From: Providencia rettgeri
GTDB taxonomy: Bacteria > Pseudomonadota > Gammaproteobacteria > Enterobacterales > Enterobacteriaceae
Direction: 5' to 3'
Assembly: GCF_001874625.1 (NCBI RefSeq)
Contig: NZ_CP017671.1
Coordinates: 4,340,001 to 4,404,000, forward strand
Length of the DNA: 64,000 nt
Shown piece by piece: positions 6,703-62,253 of this stretch. Both the position numbers and the translations under genes were made by a program. How positions within the stretch are numbered: the stretch's first letter is position 1; each line of letters starts with the position of its first letter. The notes under the pieces were generated by a model. That model was given only the letters and a program-made list of their open reading frames with translations. It made no database searches and was not told the origin of the DNA.

Positions 6703-8214
6703 ATGGAGTTTAGTGTAAAAAGTGGTAGCCCGGAAAAACAACGCAGTGCATGTATTGTTGTCGGAGTCTTTGAACCACGCCGTCTGTCCCCAATTGCTGA
6801 ACAGCTGGACAAAATTAGTGACGGATATATCAGCGCCCTGCTGCGCCGCGGCGAACTTGAGGGTAAAGTAGGGCAATCCCTGCTACTCCATCATGTACCA
6901 AATGTTCTGTCTGAACGCATTCTGCTTATCGGTTGTGGTAAAGAGCGCGAATTAGATGAACGCCAATTTAAACAAATTATTCAGAAAACAATTAGTACTC
7001 TGAATGAAACAGGCTCAATGGAAGCCGTATGTTTCTTAACTGAATTACATGTAAAAGGCCGCAATAACTACTGGAAAGTACGTCAAGCAGTCGAAACAGC
7101 AAAAGAATCGCTGTATGTGTTTGACCAACTAAAAAGTAATAAAACAGAGCACCGTCGCCCACTACGCAAACTGGTGTTTAATGTCCCAACACGCCGTGAA
7201 TTGACCAGTGGTGAGCGCGCGATTTCCCATGGCTTAGCCATTGCTTCAGGGGTTAAAGCTGCGAAAGACTTAAGTAACATGCCACCAAACATTTGTAATG
7301 CCGGTTACTTAGCCTCTCAAGCTCGTCAACTAGCAGATATTTCAGATAGCAAACTAACCACTCGTGTGATTGGTGAAGAGCAAATGAAAGAGCTGGGAAT
7401 GAATGCCTATCTAGCAGTGGGTCAAGGTTCACAAAATGAATCACTGATGTCCATTATGGAATATAAAGGCAACCCAGATGCGGACAGCAAGCCAATTGTT
7501 CTGCTCGGTAAAGGGTTAACCTTTGACTCAGGTGGTATTTCAATCAAACCAGGCGAAGGCATGGATGAAATGAAATACGACATGTGTGGTGCGGCAAGTG
7601 TGTATGGCGTGATGCGTTTTATCACTGAATTGCAACTTCCAATCAATGTGATTGGGGTACTAGCAGGTTGTGAAAACATGCCTGGTGGTCGCGCTTATCG
7701 TCCCGGCGATATTTTAACTACCATGTCAGGGCAAACCGTTGAAGTACTTAATACTGATGCGGAAGGTCGGTTAGTTCTGTGTGATGCACTCACCTATGTT
7801 GAACGCTTTGAACCTGAGCTGGTTATTGATATCGCTACCTTAACAGGGGCTTGTGTAATTGCATTAGGTAGCCATTATACAGGGTTGATGTCAAACCATA
7901 ATCCACTAGCTCATGAGCTGTTAAATGCCTCGGAACAAGCGGGTGACCGTGCATGGCGCTTACCACTAGCGGATGAGTATTTTGACCAAATCACCCCTAA
8001 TTTTGCTGATTTAGCGAATACAGGTGGTCGTCCAGCAGGTGCAATTACCGCTGGCTGCTTCCTATCTCGCTTTGCCACTAAATATAACTGGGCACACCTT
8101 GATATTGCAGGTACCGCTTGGCGTTCAGGTGCCGCGAAAGGGGCTACTGGTCGTCCGGTTGCGATGCTAGCGCAGTTTTTACTAAACCGCGCGGGTTTAA
8201 ATGGTGATGAGTAA
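6703..8214 (+). CDS. pepA: Leucyl aminopeptidase PepA (M17), also a DNA-binding regulator
   Basis: 503 residues, same length class as E. coli PepA. The C-terminal catalytic domain shows the metal/active-site stretch [19 protein letters not shown] and the M17 signature NTDAEGRL; the N-terminal domain is the one used for DNA binding. The enzyme is a hexameric Mn/Zn aminopeptidase of the cytosol. In E. coli it also assists XerCD recombination at cer and represses carAB. It is followed by its own terminator, so holC-valS are transcribed separately. Confidence 0.97.
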
Positions 8215-8383: not shown

Positions 8384-8801
8384 ACACCCCTGCAAATTGA
8401 AGGGTAGCGATTTAAACTATACCCTAGATAATTCAGTTTGTAGGTAGGCGGCAAGCGACTGAGACCTTAGGAGCATACATAAGTAGGTGACTAAGGCGAA
8501 AAAACGTAGCTAACACCCCTGCAAATTGAAGGGTAGCGATTTAAGCTATACCCTAGATAATTCAGTTTGTAGGTAGGCGGCAAGCGACTGAGACCTTAGG
8601 AGCATACCTAAGTAGGTGACTAAGGCGAAAAACATAGCTAACACCCCTGCAAATTGAAGGGTAGCGATTTAAGCTATACCCTAGATAATTCAGTTTGTAG
8701 GTAGGCGGCAAGCGACTGAGACCTTAGGAGCATACCTAAGTATGTGACTAAGGCGAAAGAGCGTAGCCAACACCCCTACAAACTGAAGTATGACGGGTAT
8801 A
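8384..8801 (+). repeat. Tandem array of three ERIC elements plus one right-end fragment
   Basis: Three complete ERIC (IRU) units start at 8418, 8547 and 8675 (spacing 129 and 128 bp). The last spans 8675-8801, exactly the classical 127 bp. Each has the inverted ends (tataccctagataattc / gaagggtagcg or gaagtatgacgggtata), the core AGGCGGCAAG, and the central hairpin ccttag...ctaagg around GAGCATAC. A lone right end at 8384-8417 precedes them. ERICs are non-autonomous palindromic repeats of Enterobacterales. This array fills the pepA-holC gap and stops 8 bp before the holC start. Confidence 0.93.
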
Positions 8802-8809
8802 ATGGGTAT

Positions 8810-9259
8810 ATGAAAAAAGGTACATTTTACCAACTAACACAAGCCTCACCGCTTCCTGATCTTGAAGCCCATGAATGGCTAGCTTGCGAGCTTGCTGCTC
8901 AATTGTGGCGTAATGGGAAGCGAGTTCTGATTGCTTGCGAAACGCAGCAACAGGCAGAAAAAATAGATGAAACCTTGTGGCAGCGTGACCCACATCAGTT
9001 TGTTCCCCATAATTTAGCGGGTGAAGGCCCTCGTTATGGTGCGCCTATTGAAATTTGTTGGCCTGCCAAACGGGGAAATACGCCACGTGATATACTGATT
9101 AATTTACAAAATCAGTTCGCAGATTTTGCCACGGCTTTCCATGAAGTGATAGACTTCGTACCTATTGATGAAACTTTAAAACAGTTGGCGCGTGAGCGGT
9201 ACAAAATATACCGTAGCGTCGGCTTCAATTTGACTATGGCGGCGCCGCCAACTTACTGA
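8810..9259 (+). CDS. holC: DNA polymerase III chi subunit
   Basis: 149 residues (E. coli 147). HolC links the clamp-loader psi subunit to single-strand binding protein. Family features: MKKGTFYQLT at the start, GKRVLIACE, FVPHNLAGEGPRYGAPIEI, and FADFATAFHEVIDFVP. The start at 8810 matches the family. An in-frame ATG at 8744 would begin inside the ERIC and adds 22 residues encoded by repeat sequence. Upstream of 8810 only the ERIC end and a weak GGGT stand in for a ribosome site. It is followed 12 bp later by valS, as in E. coli. Confidence 0.95.
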   Translation: MKKGTFYQLTQASPLPDLEAHEWLACELAAQLWRNGKRVLIACETQQQAEKIDETLWQRDPHQFVPHNLAGEGPRYGAPIEICWPAKRGNTPRDILINLQNQFADFATAFHEVIDFVPIDETLKQLARERYKIYRSVGFNLTMAAPPTY

Positions 9260-38624: not shown

Positions 38625-38750
38625 TTACTCTAAATAATTCAAGTTGTAGCTAGGCGGCAAGTAAACGAGGCGCTAGAGGCATACATAAGTATGTGACTAG
38701 TGCGAATAAACACGGCCAACAACGCTACGGCTCGAAGTATGACGAGTAAA
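38625..38750 (+). repeat. Single ERIC element
   Basis: 126 bp with inverted ends (ttactctaaataattcaag / ctcgaagtatgacgagtaaa), AGGCGGCAAG, and central hairpin gcgctag...ctagtgc around GGCATACATAAGTATGTGA. It ends one base from the stop of the DUF1471 gene and so forms its 3' untranslated region. Confidence 0.92.
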
Positions 38751-43465: not shown

Positions 43466-43956
43466 ATGTTAGAAATTAACGGATGGAAAATTTTTTTCAC
43501 TCATGTTTCTTAGAACAGTTAGTTGCATTAGTCAGTACAGTACAAACCTTAAAAAAATCTGCCCCAATAGGCTATAAAAAGAAAGCTCCCACAAAATTAC
43601 TCGCTACAATTAATAAAGTGATAACAGAACGAATTGCAGTCAACCCACTTGACCCAATTTTTTACCAAGGTAATACCTTAGGAACGAAACACAAACATTG
43701 GTTTCGGGCTAAATTTTTACAGCAGTTCCGTTTATTCTTTCGTTGCAGTGAAAAAGATAAAATCATCATTATTAGTTGGGTAAATGATTTCAGTACATTA
43801 CGTTCATATAGTTCCAAAAATGATGCCTATCAAGTATTTGCCTCAATGCTAAGCCCTCCTGATGACTGGGAAACCTTAAGCCAAGAAGCAAAAATGGCAA
43901 CAAAAGCCGTTGTTCCTAACTCAGCCATAGGTTTCCTACTCAAAAATAACGATTAA
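43466..43956 (+). pseudogene. yhaV: YhaV-type mRNA-interferase toxin, N-terminal frameshift
   Basis: The family start MLEINGWKIFF begins at ATG 43466 (ribosome site AGGGA) but stops soon after a seven-T run (43491-43497). The rest, HSCFLEQLVALVSTVQTLKK to the end, is in the -1 frame. An internal ATG at 43483 opens 157 residues, so a toxin with a slightly altered start could still be made. RelE-like core: ATKLLATINKVITERIAVNPLDPIFYQGNTLG, FRLFFRCSEKDKIIIISWVND. It overlaps the convergent permease gene by 4 bp. Confidence 0.75.
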
Positions 43957-45107
43957 TGCCGATGCCTACGCCAACGGTTAAACATATAGCTAATATGGCG
44001 TAACTCTCCATCTCTTAGCATGCCAATAAACACACCAATAACCGTATAAATTACACCAAGTGTTAGCATCATAACGATATCCATCAACACCTCACTAAAC
44101 GGCAATCCCATTTGGTTAAGGCCTGCCATGGCGTTTGTGGCCCATGTTGATGGCAATGCTGAAGCAATCATACGTACCCAATCTGGCATCGCTTGTAATG
44201 GCCAAATAGTGCCTGACATATAAAACACTGGCGTAGTGATAAACGCTAACGTTAAATAGATCATTTCAACACTGCGCAAGCATTCTGTTACCAACTTGCC
44301 TAGGCCAATAACCGCTAATAGGAACGGGAAGGTAAATATCCAAATTAAGTACAGCGGTGCTTCTTGCCGGAAGCCCAATACCCATGGCCAAAGTGCAAAA
44401 AAGACCGTAGATAAAAACAACCAAATGGGTATTAACGCAGATAATGCTCCCAAATAAACGGCTAAAGGCGGTTTACCTTTCGGTGTTGAACGGATCGCAA
44501 TACTGACGCGCACACAAGCGATCAACAAGGAGTGCTGTAACAACATCACCAATAAACCTGGGAAAACAATGGCCGCAAAGCTGACTCCCGGGTTATACAA
44601 CGGCTCAGTTTCACTGCGGACTGGGGTAATGATAACTTTGGCTTGTTCTTTGCTATAACCTGCTTTTGTTAGTAATTGCGTATTATAAGCGTTTAAAAGA
44701 GTTTGATATGCTTTTGAAAGCTCTTGTTGAATTTGGCCGCTAGCGAGGCGGTTAGTCGCATCACCATAGACAGGGACAGTAATGCTTTTACCACTTAGTA
44801 AATGCTGCTGAAAATCAGTTGGAATGATAATTATCGCAAATAATTTTCTAGCAATCATATCCTGACGAGCCTGCGCAAGGTTATCATAACCATGCAATTG
44901 TACTTTTGGCGTCGCGTCTAAATCACGGATTAGTTCGCGGCTAGCAGTGCTATGGTCCATATCGATCACGGCAACAGGCAAATCCCATAAAACAGGTTTT
45001 GCATAGACCAAACTCATCACGCACAATGAGACTAAAAGTAGTAGCCACATCGGCTTTTCTAACATACCCAGTAGCACTTTACGGAAAGTCGCAAAATAGA
45101 CCGCCAT
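43953..45107 (-). CDS. ABC-2 type exporter permease (second)
   Basis: 384 residues, YhhJ/YbhR-like. One N-terminal helix, a large extracytoplasmic domain (30-180), then five helices with the ABC-2 signature region FYMSGTIWPLQAMPDWVRMIASALPSTW. Its start overlaps the stop of the first permease. Last gene of hlyD-permease-permease. Confidence 0.9.
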   Translation of the reverse strand: MAVYFATFRKVLLGMLEKPMWLLLLVSLCVMSLVYAKPVLWDLPVAVIDMDHSTASRELIRDLDATPKVQLHGYDNLAQARQDMIARKLFAIIIIPTDFQQHLLSGKSITVPVYGDATNRLASGQIQQELSKAYQTLLNAYNTQLLTKAGYSKEQAKVIITPVRSETEPLYNPGVSFAAIVFPGLLVMLLQHSLLIACVRVSIAIRSTPKGKPPLAVYLGALSALIPIWLFLSTVFFALWPWVLGFRQEAPLYLIWIFTFPFLLAVIGLGKLVTECLRSVEMIYLTLAFITTPVFYMSGTIWPLQAMPDWVRMIASALPSTWATNAMAGLNQMGLPFSEVLMDIVMMLTLGVIYTVIGVFIGMLRDGELRHISYMFNRWRRHRH

Positions 45108-46252
45108 TAAACTTCCCCTCCTTGAGTTGCAAGCCGCTTAACCAAGCGTTTACGAACTAAAAAGGCAATTACGACAGGGTAAATTAATAAAAACAAACAA
45201 ACTTCTACAATTCGACCAAACGAAATTTCCCGTAAGAAAATATCGAACATTGCATTAAGTGTATGCGTAAGGGGTTCAATATTAGAAATAATTCGCGCGG
45301 GTAAAATCATCGATAATTCAGGCACAGCCATTCCTGAGAACGCTAAAGCGATACTCACTAGCATCCCTATTAAGCTATAAGCCATAATAGCACTAGAGGT
45401 AAAGCTAAATAGTAATACCCCAATACTTTGTGCCGCTATCACATAAAAGAAGCCTACCACCAGCATATACAATGGGTTACCCACCACTTTAGCATCAAAA
45501 ATGGTCACGAGTGCAGCAAGTTCAATTGCCAACAATGTCGTGAAAAATAACGTATACGGGGCCATCTTCCCTAATAGGGCAGTAGCGAAAGGTTTAACGC
45601 TTTGTAAAGTGCTCCCTCGCGACATAGTATAAATAGTCGCAGTGACGACAAACAGCTGTAACATATGAATAGTCGCAGCAAACTGCTGGTAATAAATATA
45701 ACTACCACTCGGATTGAACAAGCTGTCATAAGAAAGTGTCACTTGCGCCAACGGCGGTAGTGCTTTTCCCATCGACCTCGCCAGTTCTTGGCGATACTTT
45801 GCATTTAGCTCCGCAACTAAGCCGCTAAAGTCTTGAATTGCATAACTTCCCGATGCGTAAAATAAAGCGTTGTAGTACATACGCAGTTCAGGTTGGCGCC
45901 CTCTTAACACATCCTCTTCAAAATCATGGGGGATGTACAGTAATGCATAATCTTTTGAGCTGCCTAATCTTTTTAAGGATGTATTCAGATTGTCATCGAT
46001 AGTTTTTACATCTGCGTGAGGGCCTGAATTCAAGTCGCGAATAATTTGCCGAGATACTGGACTATGGTTGTCATCTACCACTGACACAGGCAAATCCATC
46101 AGCGTTCCTTCTGAAAAGTTAGAACTCACCAACGTAAACAACATCAATGGAAACAACCAGCTCAACCAGTGAAAAACAGGGCTACGGATAGCCATTTTAG
46201 TTTCACGGCTAAAAGCATGCTCGAAGCCTTGCCAAGCGAACTTTAATTTCAT
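45107..46252 (-). CDS. ABC-2 type exporter permease (first)
   Basis: 381 residues, same topology as its partner: N-terminal helix, extracytoplasmic domain (GTLMDLPVSVVDDNHSPVSRQIIRDL), then C-terminal helices (YSLIGMLVSIALAFSGMAVPELSMILPARI). The two permeases are paralogues (shared PVxVxDxDHS...SRxxIRDL). They would form a heterodimer. Confidence 0.9.
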   Translation of the reverse strand: MKLKFAWQGFEHAFSRETKMAIRSPVFHWLSWLFPLMLFTLVSSNFSEGTLMDLPVSVVDDNHSPVSRQIIRDLNSGPHADVKTIDDNLNTSLKRLGSSKDYALLYIPHDFEEDVLRGRQPELRMYYNALFYASGSYAIQDFSGLVAELNAKYRQELARSMGKALPPLAQVTLSYDSLFNPSGSYIYYQQFAATIHMLQLFVVTATIYTMSRGSTLQSVKPFATALLGKMAPYTLFFTTLLAIELAALVTIFDAKVVGNPLYMLVVGFFYVIAAQSIGVLLFSFTSSAIMAYSLIGMLVSIALAFSGMAVPELSMILPARIISNIEPLTHTLNAMFDIFLREISFGRIVEVCLFLLIYPVVIAFLVRKRLVKRLATQGGEV

Positions 46253-46263
46253 GGCAACACCTT

Positions 46264-47235
46264 TTACTTATCCCAGTGCCATAGCACACTCATACCGGGC
46301 CGCAACCCATCAATTGGCTCTAATGGATATAAACGAATTTCAAACGTTTTTAAATCAAAGTCACCAGTTGCACGGGTTGCACGCTTTGTTGCGTAATCAC
46401 CTTTTGGTGCAATATAACGAACCTCAGCCTCAATCACCTTATTGCCTAATGCGGGCACATCAAGTTGAACTTTATCGCCTTTTTTCACATTGACTAAAAT
46501 ATCTTCTCTCAAGTTATAAATGAAATAAGCCTGAGGTAAGCGAATTAATGAAATTAACGGGCTGCCTGCATTGAATAGTTCACCTATTTCTGCTGGGATA
46601 GGGCCGACTTCACCATCAACAGGCGCTCTGACTTGTAGGTCATCAACCTGTACTTGTAGCTCTGTAAGTTTTTGTTCTGCTTGATTCAGAGCTGCTTCGT
46701 ATTGTTTTCGTAACTCAACACGATCCCCATTCTGCCCCTCTTCTAACCGAGCTTTTGCACCTTGTACTTGAGAATATGCAACATCTTTAGCTTTACGGGC
46801 ATTATCAAGTTCATTTGCTGAAACATACCCTTTGCTTTTTAAATTACTCAAACGCGCATATTCGCGAGAAGCATTTTGATATTGTGAGTTTGCTTGCGCT
46901 AATGTGGCTTTAAGGTCCCGAATAGTCTCTGCTCGGGTCCCGTTAATCGATTGTTCGAGCTGAGCTTTTGCTTGGTCCCTTGCCGCTTTTGAGGCTTCGT
47001 ATTGCGCTTGCAACTCAGGGCTTTCTAATGTTAATAAAAGCTGCCCTTGTTTGACATCGTCCCCACGCTCGACATGGCGTTCAACCACTCGCCCCTTCGC
47101 TTTTGAGGTGACAATAACTTCAGGTGCATCCACTTCTCCCTGCAACAATAAATATTGATTATGGGAATGAAAAAGTGCAGCTGCTGCTATTAAAATGAGC
47201 ATCAGCAAAATCAGTACTATTGTTCTTTTTTTCAT
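46264..47235 (-). CDS. HlyD/EmrA-type membrane-fusion protein of the ABC-2 exporter
   Basis: 323 residues: one N-terminal helix (IVLILLMLILIAAAALF), lipoyl half (VTSKAKGRVVERHVERGDDVKQGQLLLTLES), a long coiled coil (70-190), and lipoyl half 2 (VRAPVDGEVGPI). Similar to YbhG/YhiI. First gene of the operon. The usual ATPase (YbhF or RbbA type) is absent. Confidence 0.92.
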   Translation of the reverse strand: MKKRTIVLILLMLILIAAAALFHSHNQYLLLQGEVDAPEVIVTSKAKGRVVERHVERGDDVKQGQLLLTLESPELQAQYEASKAARDQAKAQLEQSINGTRAETIRDLKATLAQANSQYQNASREYARLSNLKSKGYVSANELDNARKAKDVAYSQVQGAKARLEEGQNGDRVELRKQYEAALNQAEQKLTELQVQVDDLQVRAPVDGEVGPIPAEIGELFNAGSPLISLIRLPQAYFIYNLREDILVNVKKGDKVQLDVPALGNKVIEAEVRYIAPKGDYATKRATRATGDFDLKTFEIRLYPLEPIDGLRPGMSVLWHWDK

Positions 47236-47489
47236 TATTTATGTGAACCTTAAATAATAACGGGGGAAACTATCATCCCTAGAGTATGACAAGAAAATTA
47301 AATACAGCGTTAATAAATTCGTGCGCAAGATCACGAAAAGGTAGGGCATTGTCTAATATTGAATCGATTTTTTTCTTATGTCAAATAATGATGAATGTCC
47401 TTTACTCAAATGTCGATTACTTAACCAATGACTTACGGTATAATCACTCGCCAAATAAAGACTAAAAATAGACGCTAAAGTGAATAACT

Positions 47490-48736
47490 CCCGCAATGCA
47501 AAATATAACGAGCCATGTTCTAAATAGTTCACATTGTGGATAGGCGACAAGAGAAGACATCTTGGGGAGCGTACATCAGTATATGACCCAAAGAGCTGAA
47601 CGTAGTCAATACCCCATAACGTGCACATGACGAGCCATGTTCTAAATAGTTCACATTGTGGATAGGCGACAAGAGAAGATATCTTGGGGAGCGTACATCA
47701 GTATATGACCCAAAGAGCTGAACGTAGTCAACCTCCCATAACGTGCACATGACGAGCCATGCTCTAAATAGTTCACATTGTGGATAGGCGACAAGAGAAG
47801 ACATCTTGGGGAGCATACATCAGTATATGACCCAAAGAGCTGAACGTAGTCAACCTCCCATAACGTGCACATGACGAGCCATGCTCTAAATAATTCGCAT
47901 TGTGGGTAGGCGACAAGGAAACGAGCCCCTAGGAGCATACAGTAGTATGTGACTAGGGTGAGATGACAAAGTCAACACCCCATAACGTGCACATAACGAG
48001 CCATGCTCTAAATAATTCGCATTGTGGGTAGGCGACGAAGAAACGAGACCCTAGGAGCATACAGTAGTATGTGACTAGGGTGAGATGACAAAGTCAACAC
48101 CCCATAACGTGCACATGACGAGCCATGCTCTAAATAGTTCGCATTGTGGGTAGGCGACGAGGAAACGAGACCCTAGGAGCATACAGTAGTATGTGACTAG
48201 GGTGAGATGACAAAGTCAACACCCCATAACGTGCACATGACGAGCCATGCTCTAAATAGTTCACATTGTGGATAGGCGACGAAGAAACGAGACCCTAGGA
48301 GCACACAGTAGTATGTGACTAGGGTGAGATGACAAAGTCAACATCCCATAACGTGCACATGACGAGCCATGCTCTAAATAATTCGCATTGTGGGTAGGCC
48401 GACGAAGAAACGAGACCCTAGGAGCATACAGTAGTATGTGACTAGGGTGAGATGACAAAGTCAACACCCCATAACGTGCACATGACGAGCCATGCTCTAA
48501 ATAGTTCGCATTGTGGGTAGGCGACGAGGAAACGAGGCCCTAGGAGCATACAGTAGTATGTGACTAGGGTGAGATGACAAAGTCAACACCCCATAACGTG
48601 CACATGACGAGCCATGCTCTAAATAGTTCGCATTGTGGGTAGGCGACGAGGAAACGAGACCCTAGGAGCATACAGTAGTATGTGACTAGGGCGAGATGAC
48701 AAAGTCAACACCCCCACAATGTGAAATATGACGAGC
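47490..48736 (+). repeat. Tandem array of ten ERIC-type units
   Basis: Units begin at 47519, 47641, 47763, 47885, 48007, 48129, 48251, 48373, 48496 and 48618: period 122 bp, with 123 once (an extra C in unit 8). A right-end fragment (47490-47518) precedes them. Units 1-3 form one subtype (core cttgggg...cccaaag), units 4-6 and 8-10 another (ccctag...ctaggg). Unit 7 joins a subtype-1 left end to a subtype-2 right end. Each has ERIC landmarks: TCTAAATAATTC, GTAGGCGAC, GAGCATAC...GTATGTGA, ATGACGAG. The array fills the gap up to the btsS start codon. Confidence 0.93.
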
Positions 48737-50422
48737 ATGTACGAATTTGATTTAATATTACTCCTACTCCAGCAAATGTGCGTCTACCTTGTTATCGCAT
48801 GGGCGCTCAGCCGCACCCCACTCGTCATTCCCTTATTGAAAGTCACTATCCGCTTACCCCACAAGGTGATGTGCTACCTGATTTTTTCCGTATTTTGTAT
48901 TATCGGGACATATTTTGGCTTACATATCAATGATTCCATTGCCAATACTCGGGCAATTGGTGCGGTATTAGGTGGGCTACTTGGCGGCCCTGCCGTCGGG
49001 TTTGCCGTTGGTTTTACTGGCGGAATACACCGTTATTCATTAGGAGGGATGAGTGCATTTGCTTGCATGGTTTCGACCATTGTCGAGGGGCTCATTGGTG
49101 GCTTAGTCCATCGTTACTATATGAAACGTGGCGAAATTAATAAAATTTTTAACCCAGTTACTGCCAGTTGTGCGACTTTTGTAGCTGAAGTCCTACAAAT
49201 GCTGATTATTCTATTACTTGCGCGCCCTTTCGATGAAGCCCTTGAGCTGGTGAGAAGTATTGTTGCACCGATGTTAGTCGCTAACACCATTGGTGCAGCC
49301 ATGTTTATTCGTATTTTACTTGACCGACGCGCAATTGTTGAAAAATACACCACCGCTTTTTCCGCACAGGCCCTTAAAATTGCCTTAACGACCGAAGGTA
49401 TTCTACGTAAAGGCTTTAATGCGGATAACAGCATGAAAGTTGCCAAAATTATTTACCAAGAACTGGAAATTGGAGCTGTTGCCATTACCGATCGCGAAAA
49501 AATACTCGCCTTTATTGGTATTGGGGCAGACCACCACCGACCTGGAACACCAATCTCATCGACACAATCAAGACAAGCCATTGATAATAATGAGGTTGTC
49601 TATGCCGATGGGAATGAAACACCGTATAAATGTTCCCTCAGCCCAACTTGTAAACTTGGCTCGGCACTCGTCATTCCCCTACGAGGCGAAAATGACCGAG
49701 TGATTGGGACCATAAAACTCTATGAAGCCAAAAATAGCCTATTTAGCTCAATCAACCGTACATTAGGTGAAGGGATTGCCAGCTTGTTTTCAGCTCAAAT
49801 TTTGGCAGGGCAATACGAACGCAATAAACAATCGCTGCTACAATCGGAAGTAAAATTGCTCCATGCCCAAGTAAACCCTCATTTTTTATTTAATGTACTC
49901 AACACGTTGCAGGCCGTGATCCGCAAAGACAGCCAACAAGCGGGGCAATTAGTGCAATATATTTCGACCTTTTTCCGTAATAACTTAAAACGTCCGGAAC
50001 AAAATGCCACTTTGGGAGAAGAAATTGAACATATCAATGCTTACTTACAAATAGAAAAAGCTCGTTTTCAAGAAAACTTACAGATTTACATCGACATTCC
50101 AGAGGAAGTTAAACATGTTGAACTCCCTGCATTTACCTTACAACCTCTTGTTGAAAACGCAATTAAACACGGCACCTCACAGTTATTAGAGACGGGATAT
50201 ATTACAATACGTAGTTATATCGGTAGCGAACACGTCTATATTGAAATTGAAGACAACGCAGGGCTCTACCAATCTACGAAGCAAAGTGATGGCTTAGGGA
50301 TGGGCTTGGTCGATAAACGTTTGCGTTTAAAATATGGCGAACAATACGGCATTAGCGTAGAGCATGAGTCAGAAAAATTCACACGAATGAAAATCCGCCT
50401 ACCGTATTTGGCGGCACCATAA
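48737..50422 (+). CDS. btsS: Pyruvate-sensing histidine kinase BtsS (YehU)
   Basis: 561 residues from ATG 48737, exactly the E. coli length (MYEFDLILLLLQQMCVYL). The in-frame ATG at 48728 lies in the last ERIC and is not favoured. The N-terminal 5TM-LYT membrane sensor binds external pyruvate, a GAF domain follows (KCSLSPTCKLGSALVIPLRGE), then the LytS-type kinase with His in QVNPHFLFNVLNTLQ and an ATP lid DNAGLYQS...GLGMGLVDKRL. No ribosome site better than ACGAG is present. Confidence 0.95.
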   Translation: MYEFDLILLLLQQMCVYLVIAWALSRTPLVIPLLKVTIRLPHKVMCYLIFSVFCIIGTYFGLHINDSIANTRAIGAVLGGLLGGPAVGFAVGFTGGIHRYSLGGMSAFACMVSTIVEGLIGGLVHRYYMKRGEINKIFNPVTASCATFVAEVLQMLIILLLARPFDEALELVRSIVAPMLVANTIGAAMFIRILLDRRAIVEKYTTAFSAQALKIALTTEGILRKGFNADNSMKVAKIIYQELEIGAVAITDREKILAFIGIGADHHRPGTPISSTQSRQAIDNNEVVYADGNETPYKCSLSPTCKLGSALVIPLRGENDRVIGTIKLYEAKNSLFSSINRTLGEGIASLFSAQILAGQYERNKQSLLQSEVKLLHAQVNPHFLFNVLNTLQAVIRKDSQQAGQLVQYISTFFRNNLKRPEQNATLGEEIEHINAYLQIEKARFQENLQIYIDIPEEVKHVELPAFTLQPLVENAIKHGTSQLLETGYITIRSYIGSEHVYIEIEDNAGLYQSTKQSDGLGMGLVDKRLRLKYGEQYGISVEHESEKFTRMKIRLPYLAAP

Positions 50423-50440
50423 TAATGATAATGTAACCCT

Positions 50441-51157
50441 ATGAATGTATTAATTGTTGATGATGAACCACTTGCGCGGGAAAACGTCCGTTGCCTCCTC
50501 GAAGAACACGATGATATTGAAATCATTGGCGAATGTGCCAATGCGATAGAAGCTATTGGGATAATCCATAAAAAAAAGCCTGATGTGGTCTTTCTCGATA
50601 TCCAAATGCCGCGCCTAACTGGCCTTGAAATGGTGCGCATGTTAGATCCTGAAGACCGCCCCTATATTGTCTTTCTAACCGCTTTTAATGAATTTGCTAT
50701 TCAGGCTTTTGAAGAACATGCTTTTGATTATTTATTAAAACCCCTTGAACCAGAAAGATTGGAGAAAACATTAAGCCGGCTCCGTCAAGGTAAACAAAAA
50801 CAAAACCTTGAGCTACTGGGTAATAATGAACCACTTAAATTTATTCCGTGTACTGGTCATAGCCGTATTTATTTGATGAAACTCGATGAAGTATTGTATG
50901 CAACTTCTCGTTTGAGTGGCGTCTACGTCATGAGTACACAAGGGCAAGAAGGCTTTACTGAACTCACATTACGCACCTTAGAAACTCGTACACCGCTAGT
51001 GCGCTGCCATCGCCAATACTTAGTCAATATGACCCAATTAAATGAAATTTTATTTGGCGATAGTGGGCAAGCCGAGTTAGTACTTAGCTCTGGCGAACGC
51101 ATCCCCGTTAGCCGCCGTTACCTCAAACCACTAAAAGAGGCATTGGGTTTAGTCTAA
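50441..51157 (+). CDS. btsR: LytTR response regulator BtsR (YehT)
   Basis: 238 residues. The receiver domain has Asp53 ([13 protein letters not shown]) and Lys in [10 protein letters not shown]. The LytTR DNA-binding domain ([49 protein letters not shown]) follows. In E. coli it activates the pyruvate transporter gene btsT, which is not in this window. Confidence 0.95.
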
Positions 51158-57530: not shown

Positions 57531-57656
57531 TCTACTCGTCATACTTCAAGTTGCAACGTTGTTGACTACACTCATTCGTACTAGTCACATACTGATGTAC
57601 ATTCCTAGCCACTCACTCATTGGTCGCCTAGCCGCAACTGGAATTATCTAGAGTAA
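57531..57656 (-). repeat. ERIC element between rpsO and its terminator
   Basis: About 126 bp. Plus-strand ends are tctactcgtcatacttcaag and ggaattatctagagtaaga; the core is gtactagtcacatactgatgtacattcctagccac. It begins 3 bp after the rpsO stop and is transcribed with rpsO on the minus strand. Confidence 0.92.
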
Positions 57657-59514: not shown

Positions 59515-62253
59515 TTAACCGTCGATCGAACGCTTAACTTCAATAACTTCGAAGACTTCAATCATATCGCCGACACGAACATCGTTGTAGTTCTTAACAC
59601 CGATACCACATTCCATGCCGTTACGAACTTCAGCAACATCATCTTTAAAGCGACGCAGAGACTCTAACTCACCTTCGTAGATAACCACGTTGTCACGCAG
59701 TACACGAATTGGGTTATTACGCTTGATGGTACCTTCTGTAACCATACAACCTGCAACAGCACCAAATTTCGGTGATTTAAATACATCGCGGACTTCTGCA
59801 AGACCAATGATTTGTTGTTTGTATTCAGGTGCCAACATACCGCTCATTGCTTGTTTGATTTCATCAATCAAGCTATAGATAACGGAATAGTAACGTAAAT
59901 CAACGCTTTCACTTTCAATGACACGACGCGCAGATGCATCTGCACGGACGTTAAAGCCAAGAATGATAGCATTTGATGCCGCTGCCAATGTTGCATCTGT
60001 CTCAGTGATACCACCAACGCCAGAACCGATGATTTTAATTTTAACTTCATCAGTTGACAGTTTCATCAGAGAGTCAGTGATCGCTTCACAAGTACCTTGA
60101 ACGTCAGTTTTCAGCACGATATTCAGTTCAGAAACTTTACCTTCTTCCATGTTCGCAAACATGTTTTCCAGTTTAGATTTCTGCTGGCGCGCTAATTTAA
60201 CATCGCGGAATTTACCTTGACGATATAGAGCAACTTCACGGGCTTTTTTCTCATCACGAACTACTGTCGCTTCATCACCAGCAGATGGGACGCTTGATAG
60301 CCCCAAAATTTCAACTGGCATAGAAGGGCCTGCAGATTGAACTTCTTTACCTAATTCGTTACGCATTGCACGAATACGGCCATATTCAAACCCACATAAG
60401 ACGATATCGCCTTTGTTCAGTGTACCTTCTTGAACTAAGATAGTTGCCACTGGGCCACGACCTTTGTCTAAGTAGGATTCAACAACAACACCGCTTGCCA
60501 TTCCTGCATAAACTGCTTTCAGTTCTAAAACCTCAGCTTGCAGTAAGATAGCATCCAGTAGGTCATCAATACCTGTACCTTTCTTAGCTGATACGCTAAT
60601 GAACTGAGTATCACCACCCCAATCTTCGGAAATAACACCGTATTGAGATAACTCATTTCTGACGCGGTCTGGATCAGCTTCTGGCTTATCGATTTTGTTG
60701 ACTGCAACCACAATTGGTACACCCGCTGCTTTCGCATGCTGAATAGCTTCAATTGTTTGTGGCATAACACCATCATCGGCAGCAACAACAAGGATTACGA
60801 TATCCGTTGCTTGTGCTCCACGAGCACGCATAGAGGTAAACGCGGCGTGACCTGGGGTATCTAAGAAGGTAATCATACCTTTATCGGTCTGTACGTGGTA
60901 CGCACCGATATGCTGAGTAATACCACCGGCTTCACCTGATGCCACTTTCGTTGAACGAATGTAGTCAAGTAAAGACGTTTTACCATGGTCAACGTGACCC
61001 ATAATAGTCACAACTGGTGCGCGTGGTTCTTGTAATGCAGAGCCTGTATCACGGTCATTCATTACCGCTTCTTCTAGCTCATTTTCACGACGCAGAATAA
61101 CTTTGTGACCCATTTCTTCTGCAACAAGCTGTGCAGTTTCTTGGTCAATCACTTGGTTGATAGTCGCCATAGCGCCCATCTTCATCATTGTTTTGATGAC
61201 TTGAGAGCCTTTAACCGCCATTTTATTAGCAAGTTCGCCTACAGTGATCGTTTCACCAATGATAACATCGCGGTTTACCGCAGCAGCTGGCTTAGTAAAG
61301 CTTTGCTGTAAGGAACTGCCTTTACGTTGTTTACCTTTAGTACGACCTGAACGACCTGCTGCACGCTCTTCTTCGCGATCAGCTTTCTCTGAAAGCTTGT
61401 TACCTTTTTTCTGGCGAGGTGCTTTAGCGGTACGGTTACGAGAACGACGGCCTTCTTCTTTCGCATCATTTTCATCTTCAGCGGCACGAGCGTGCGTAGA
61501 AGTGGTTGTATGATAATCGCTGTCTTCTTCAGTTTTAGTTTCAGCCGTCCATTTTTCGCCATTTTCTTCAGCCATTTTACGGGCTTCTTCAGCAACACGA
61601 CGCGCTTCTGCTTCAACTTTACGTTGAGTTTCTTCTTCAGCTTTGCGTTTTAGCTCTGCAGCTTCAGCTTCACGGCGTTGTTTGTCGGCATTAGTTTCAG
61701 ACGATTTGCCTGCTTTTTGATGATTTTCGCTTGGTTTCACTTTTTCTCTTTCCGCTGCTTCGCGCGTAGCTTTATCTGCTGCTTCACGTTTTGCTTTATC
61801 TTCGGCATCACGTTTTGCGTTTGCTTCTGCTTCGCGTTTTGCAGCTTCTTCTGCTAATCGCTTAGCTTGTGCTTCACGTTGTGCCAGTTCTTCAGCTTCG
61901 CGCTGTGCCTGCTCTTCCGCTTCACGCTGTGCCTGCTCTTCCGCTTTCGCTTCTTCAGCGTCACGGTTCACATAAGTGCGTTTTTTGCGGACTTCAACAT
62001 TTACCGATTTGCTTTTGCCACCGGTGACCGGAACACTCAACGTACTACGAGTTTTACGTTGTAGTGTTAACTTACTTGGCTGACCCGCCGCCCCGCCTTG
62101 TTCGCGGTTTAGGTGGTTCAGTAAAGCTTCTTTTTCTGACTGGCTAACAGAGTCATTCTCACTTTTTTTGATCCCTGCTTCAGCAAATTGCTGTACCAGG
62201 CGATCAACTGTGATTTGAATTTCCGTTGCCAATGTTTTTACAGTTTCTGTCAT
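59515..62253 (-). CDS. infB: Translation initiation factor IF-2
   Basis: 912 residues (E. coli 890). N-terminal IF2 domain, then a long Ala/Glu/Arg/Lys coiled coil built of short repeats ([20 protein letters not shown]). GTPase: [25 protein letters not shown]-terminal domains bind fMet-tRNA ([22 protein letters not shown]). 24 bp after nusA. Extra length compared with E. coli is in the repeat region. Confidence 0.97.

Follow-up and report, generated by a model that had tools for sequence, protein, structure and literature searches.

What is the tandem array that lies against a btsS-like sensor kinase gene in Providencia rettgeri, how did it reach ten units, and what set its direction? We analyzed a 64,000-nucleotide stretch of contig NZ_CP017671.1 (positions 4,340,001 to 4,404,000; assembly GCF_001874625.1), which is called the window below and supplies the coordinates of all features. 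The original prediction was of ten tandem ERIC units in two sequence classes, with one mosaic unit. The parts of the array are as follows.

47490..47507, plus strand: ERIC right-end-like remnant adjoining unit 1 on the left (by eye, against the terminal right end)
47508..47873, plus strand: units 1 to 3, class A core (unit alignment)
47874..48239, plus strand: units 4 to 6, class B core (unit alignment)
48240..48361, plus strand: unit 7, mosaic, A at the 2 left diagnostic columns and B at 28 (unit alignment)
48362..48606, plus strand: units 8 and 9, class B (unit alignment)
48607..48740, plus strand: unit 10, terminal and origin-side, with a canonical right end that runs into the btsS start codon (folds)

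Tandem Repeats Finder reported 47508-48714 as 9.9 copies of period 122 (94% matches, score 1735). Alignment placed the ten unit starts at 47508, 47630, 47752, 47874, 47996, 48118, 48240, 48362, 48485, and 48607. Units 1 to 7 and 9 are 122 bp long, unit 8 is 123 bp, and unit 10 is 124 bp, with the register kept. Both methods therefore bear out ten ERIC units with a period of 122 and one of 123. Units 1 to 3 have no letter in common with units 4 to 6 and 8 to 10 at 30 of 125 alignment columns, which confirms the two classes. At these diagnostic columns, unit 7 is class A at the first two (columns 24 and 33) and class B at the remaining 28. It does, as predicted, join the left of one class to the core and right of the other, and its mosaic nature is real, resting on two sites. 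The class consensuses are 47% identical in the core and 88% and 93% identical at the two ends. This likeness at the ends, but not in the core, suggests that cores were exchanged inside an existing array. No donor of either core stood out elsewhere in the genome, where matches reached 82-85% over at least half a unit and 94% over 33 bp. Unit 5 differs from unit 8 at one column, as does unit 6 from unit 9, and this near-identity suggests duplication of a three-unit block.

The genes around the array are the following.

43953..46252, minus strand: two ABC-2 type permease-like genes (ORFs; NCBIfam matches under the cut-off)
46264..47235, minus strand: divergent gene, periplasmic adaptor of an exporter operon (NCBIfam RND_mfp, 119 bits against a cut-off of 94.9)
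48737..50422, plus strand: btsS-like sensor kinase gene (ORF; match in 24/24 genus genomes)
50441..51157, plus strand: btsR response regulator (NCBIfam PRK11697.1 BtsR, 391 bits against a cut-off of 246)

The btsS product matched NCBIfam below threshold only, and we presume the name from the adjacent btsR and a similarity to btsS. The right end of unit 10 enters the btsS ATG (48737-48739), a few bases past position 48736, where the array had been thought to end. The idea that the array forms the whole btsS leader holds in that it reaches the start codon, but not at its other side, where unit 1 is separated from the divergent adaptor gene's start by 272 bp of other sequence. A consensus scan for promoter-like sites gave 7 against 3.7 expected, and no btsS promoter was located. 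Probably, the array is mostly neutral leader DNA. Three overlapping minus-strand ORFs of 91-95 amino acids run across it (47353-47938) and are probably spurious. One paper describes the misannotation of MITE ORFs in Photorhabdus (PMC6267812).

What kind of element are these units? Their length is near 120-130 bp, as for ERIC (Tandem Repeats Finder and alignments). The ERIC consensus is a long imperfect inverted repeat of 39 pairs, and 27 of these show two-sided changes in at least 1 of 41 elements. Pairing is maintained despite sequence drift, through selection or template switching between the arms. Many copies end in TACTC...GAGTA. All 43 of the 43 assessed loci in this genome are intergenic, although some extend into a start or stop by as much as 58 nt; in the ORF calling used for context, ORFs that lie more than 40% within an ERIC are dropped. 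An iterated profile turned symmetrical and served only for picking the better strand, and oriented searches were made with R1, a one-orientation sequence model built from 41 ERICs. R1 matches in 24 of 26 other enterobacterial genera point to sequence kinship with enterobacterial ERIC. One such match from another genus, L197, in turn matched elements in 5376 of 5426 E. coli genomes, the best rows being 86% identical over 98%, with no annotated feature beneath. We take the matched E. coli elements to be E. coli ERICs. Strand-specific mutation as a source of apparent orientation was considered and ruled out, because asymmetric positions are kept over 41 copies, two of exceptional polarity included.

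The original prediction assumed that ERICs usually occur singly. This fails in the genome at hand. One array unit used as a BLAST query had 104 own-genome matches, many in arrays, and a profile scan of selected stretches found 132 units at 45 loci, of which 28 have more than one unit. The R1 search (1009 first-look candidates, 150 scored) placed the best 150 of 153 matches in 62 loci, 33 of which are multi-copy, and 81 neighboring pairs among these matches lie 90-200 bp apart. Pairs at that spacing numbered 0 in 126 rows from 14 other genera and 4 in 150 rows from G088, a genome of another genus. The window itself has three further ERIC loci.

8384..8788, plus strand: second tandem ERIC array, 3.1 copies, period 129 (Tandem Repeats Finder; ERIC profile)
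38626..38743, plus strand: single ERIC, normal polarity (ERIC profile)
57538..57655, minus strand: single ERIC, exceptional polarity (ERIC profile; also present at the orthologous site of at least 7 relatives)

The second array has three units upstream of a gene that starts near 8830, and its linker duplicates the 5' flank. An Rfam match to Ysr276, a Yersinia sRNA, lies nearby (132 bits, 7261-7455). Elsewhere in the window, 61755-61953 holds several overlapping 24-bp tandem repeats that are possibly coding.

We compared the btsS site in 24 genus genomes, one with an N gap, by a profile search of the 1.5 kb upstream. In 18 of them, no more than 10 nt separate an ERIC right end from the btsS ATG. 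Full units (at least 100 bp) number ten in our genome, four in G013, three in G006, G005, and G014, two in G008, G011, G003, and G002, and one in seven others. G020, the nearest relative by protein identity, has a 56-bp right half alone, and G016 has a right end next to 174 N, the run of N falling exactly at the expected array position. G010 carries a single unit 125 nt upstream of btsS. Copy number across relatives, which the original prediction had linked to active expansion, thus runs from none to four full units and is not fixed at the species level. Could the ten copies be an assembly artefact? All ten units differ from one another, so that no identical pair exists, and eight other genus assemblies have two to four full units at btsS; we give the artefact practically no credence. 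Five genomes have no ERIC at the site (G004, G015, G018, G019, and G021), and in G019 the btsS gene is broken by a stop. The other four have GGAA a few nucleotides ahead of the btsS ATG and TA at the ATG. By comparison, in the ERIC-bearing genomes the ERIC right end occupies the place of the GGAA-type sequence.

Junctions between units indicate how arrays grow. Across 20 arrays of at least three units, they differ from array to array, but inside most arrays they are near-identical. In arrays 744583, 752928, and 4348420, the linker, by eye, repeats the 5' flank, which is joined there to a truncated right arm, and 744583 and 752928 have a few bases in common at the join. In the other 17 of the 20 arrays, the linker resembles today's 5' flank little or over a few bases only. 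Right-end-like remnants, seen by eye ahead of unit 1 in some arrays, would fit repeated ERIC transposition into one site instead of local duplication. The linkers, near-identical inside most arrays and unlike between them, largely refute this. In addition, the class B units at btsS are 96-100% alike, whereas other ERICs of the genome match them at no more than about 85% over long stretches. Repeated transposition is therefore hardly credible, although array 3999367, whose junctions are unlike each other, may be an exception to local duplication. The predicted spread by unequal recombination or slippage with homogenization fits the array-specific junctions, the probable three-unit repeat, the mosaic unit, and the variable copy number.

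Folding also differs along the arrays. The terminal origin-side unit has the lowest RNA MFE in 22 of 25 arrays, with array 1730213, whose terminal unit folds worse, among the exceptions. Mean RNA MFE is -54.5 for terminal units, -40.1 for 77 internal units, and -51.2 for 18 singles. As RNA, 58 of these internal units retain at least 15 outer-stem pairs, so hairpins persist inside the arrays in weakened form. At btsS, unit 10 has the lowest RNA MFE of the ten units. As DNA, this terminal unit (134 nt) folds at -28.4 kcal/mol (z -6.7), whereas equal-length folds at unit 1 and unit 6 (z +1.2 and -1.2) are no better than shuffles; a shorter register for unit 1 gave the same outcome.

The direction of the array is part of a chromosome-wide pattern. 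On this chromosome, dnaA lies at base 1 and dif at 2.464 of 4.781 Mb. Among the best 150 of 153 R1 matches, the right end faces the origin, on the strand opposite to fork direction, in 59 of 62 loci (p 1.7e-14) and in all 33 multi-copy loci. Therefore, the fork meets the right end first. The exceptions are loci 401839, 747880, and 4397532. Among best-scoring matches, a sample in which weak old copies are under-represented, other genus genomes gave 24/26 (G002), 16/16 (G010), 26/26 (G013), 35/37 (G017), 9/9 (G018), and 21/23 (G022), which with our genome makes 190/199 loci in 7 genomes. Six more gave 1/1 (G021), 2/2 (G015), 39/39 (G005), 36/36 (G011), 29/31 (G003), and 22/22 (G023), or 129/131. 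The total over 13 genus genomes is 319/330 loci and 439/450 listed units; since sites are partly common by descent, the genomes are not independent samples, but loci inside one genome are separate. The contigs of G002, G013, G017, and G018 start away from dnaA, and their strands still switch where dnaA and dif predict, which makes them a good control.

For comparison with other genera, 79 family genomes were taken, one per genus, and R1 was run against the 26 whose dif lies on a large contig. In the 14 genera with dnaA located, 88 of 126 rows had the same polarity (p 1e-5), with single genera ranging from 3/9 (G024) to 5/5 (G048). This is weaker than in the first 7 genus genomes (Fisher p 2.4e-10). 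The 3.3-Mb genome G088 has, on contig 1, at least 150 ERIC-like matches on mixed strands. A runs test on its top 60 matches gave 25 runs against 29.8 expected, with 12% of shuffles as low. Its dif match is 0.14 Mb from dnaA, so fork direction is not assignable there.

Does the pattern come from transcription? Expressed genes lie for the most part on the leading strand, and ERICs might be retained as 3'-UTR hairpins after their stops. Of 41 normally polarized own loci, 30 have the right end no more than 12 nt from a CDS boundary, and none has the left end that close. The right end is turned toward a stop codon in 29 of the 41 loci (25 within 12 nt) and toward a start in 12 (5 within 12 nt), and passages of two papers (PMC2229807 and PMC10969869) report that ERIC at the 3' ends of Yersinia genes changes mRNA decay, orientation being crucial. 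However, a convergent gene pair has two equivalent stops, yet in 14 of 15 cases the ERIC is turned toward the gene on the origin side. The polarity also holds at divergent and head-on sites, btsS among them (5/5 each, or 10/10), and at 17 of 18 codirectional sites. (This count covers 43 of 45 loci with our own ORF calls; two were left out for a weak best unit.) A transcriptional rule is therefore very unlikely. In relatives, the right end abuts a CDS in 22 of 39 normal loci, 14 of the 39 being the btsS site, and the left end in none; of 9 exceptional loci, 7 have an abutting left end, and these 7 are all at a single orthologous site. These counts indicate that ERICs tend to sit against the origin-proximal gene.

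The loci are also spread unevenly. Per tenth of the way from origin to terminus, the 62 own loci number 3, 12, 5, 16, 7, 4, 5, 5, 3, and 2 (KS p 0.0025), and 132 of 137 loci in six relatives number 11, 17, 18, 19, 23, 17, 7, 13, 2, and 5. ERIC loci are thus sparse near dif, with 2 of the 62 listed in the last tenth in our genome and 7 of 132 in the last two tenths in the six relatives.

Another way to reach such polarity is random insertion followed by loss of wrong-way ERICs, either through orientation-dependent hairpin instability at the fork or through selection. The btsS terminal unit makes a strong hairpin on either strand, and template switching at quasipalindromes is strand biased in E. 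coli, according to passages of one paper (PMC7202029). The polarity of Providencia, far above the 88/126 of other genera, could also be the work of a slow filter. On the other hand, the btsS terminal hairpin is near-equal on the two strands (-28.4 and -24.0), and a wrong-way ERIC can endure. A complete scan of the 60 kb around btsS in 18 relatives (units of at least 60 bits) gave a polarity of 39/48, and 7 of the 9 exceptions are at a single site, the orthologue of window position 57538. Persistence there in our genome and 7 relatives means that the reverse orientation is tolerated at this site. We consider loss of wrong-way ERICs rather unlikely. The site itself has a stop codon on one side and a terminator-like hairpin on the other, and a match to a ribosomal S15 leader is nearby. 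Its orthologue is empty in others such as G008, G012, and G003, and the empty site has no clean TA.

The btsS array is best explained as a locally amplified ERIC, an element of the non-autonomous, TA-flanked kind linked to IS630. Beyond the polarity and array anatomy established above, we think it fairly probable that a MITE was inserted in a fork-coupled manner and then amplified in tandem. At btsS, an ERIC would have arrived with its right end at the start codon, displacing the GGAA-type sequence before the ATG; the position common to 18 of 24 genus genomes makes one ancestral insertion likely. Tandem duplication would have followed, between a breakpoint within the ERIC right arm and a second one in the left flank, which, judging from the junctions, is as expected of slipped-strand synthesis through a hairpin. 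Unequal recombination and conversion may then have altered copy number and swapped cores, to judge from units 5/8, 6/9, and 7. The orientation of this array, and of nearly all other listed ERICs, would have been set by replication. Fork-coupled insertion with a fixed polarity appears most likely, rather than selective retention; because many ERIC sites are common to several species, few recent insertions can be scored for insertion bias against retention.

We put forward more tentatively, as a possibility short of likely, that fork-coupled transposition sets ERICs right behind the origin-proximal gene, so that the family is a chromosome-wide record of fork direction, and that tandem growth driven by the hairpins is polar and leaves the origin-side unit the most intact. 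ERICs might also be polar marks for replication or segregation. These elements are widely used in fingerprinting. Their near-absolute link to the fork makes the way they spread a testable question, with either a transposase coupled to the fork or a filter specific to one strand as the answer it suggests. Many arrays with known fork direction are natural replicates of hairpin-associated tandem duplication, and at btsS the start-codon bases of a sensor gene have been taken over by a mobile element.

In the open-access literature searched, we recognized no report of tandem ERIC arrays of this kind or of ERIC orientation relative to replication, although we do not claim that the literature has none. 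The main text of a 2024 MITE review (PMC10969869) lacks the words orientation, replication, and tandem. The elements described here share their length, intergenic siting, TA-like ends, long hairpin, and high copy number with ERIC/IRU/RU-1 (MITEPlu5 in Photorhabdus and MITEEc1 in ISfinder). Passages on MITEPlu5, the Photorhabdus counterpart, link it to IS630 via its ends and suggest IS630-type mobilization (PMC6267812). Unlike known ERIC, the elements here are multi-copy at 33 of 62 loci (best 150 of 153 matches), and their strand is locked to replication.

IS200/IS605, Tn7, and similar IS are autonomous, with transposition proteins of their own, unlike ERIC. IS200/IS605 elements have subterminal hairpins at both ends, whereas ERIC here forms a single end-to-end hairpin. 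REPINs are linked to RAYT transposases. Passages of a review describe an orientation tied to the fork for IS200/IS605, Tn7 (TnsE), and several beta-clamp-binding IS (PMC5371812), and element orientation tracks fork direction in ERIC as well; the terms MITE and IS630 are absent from the main text of that review. The tandem REPIN/REP clusters of Pseudomonas fluorescens SBW25, as described in parts of one paper (PMC3116915), consist of tandem units with flanking sequence, as do the arrays here, and the GI-GIII arrays of SBW25 run forward around 2 Mb and in reverse around 4 Mb. The parallel drawn here between REPINs and ERIC arrays is one of description.
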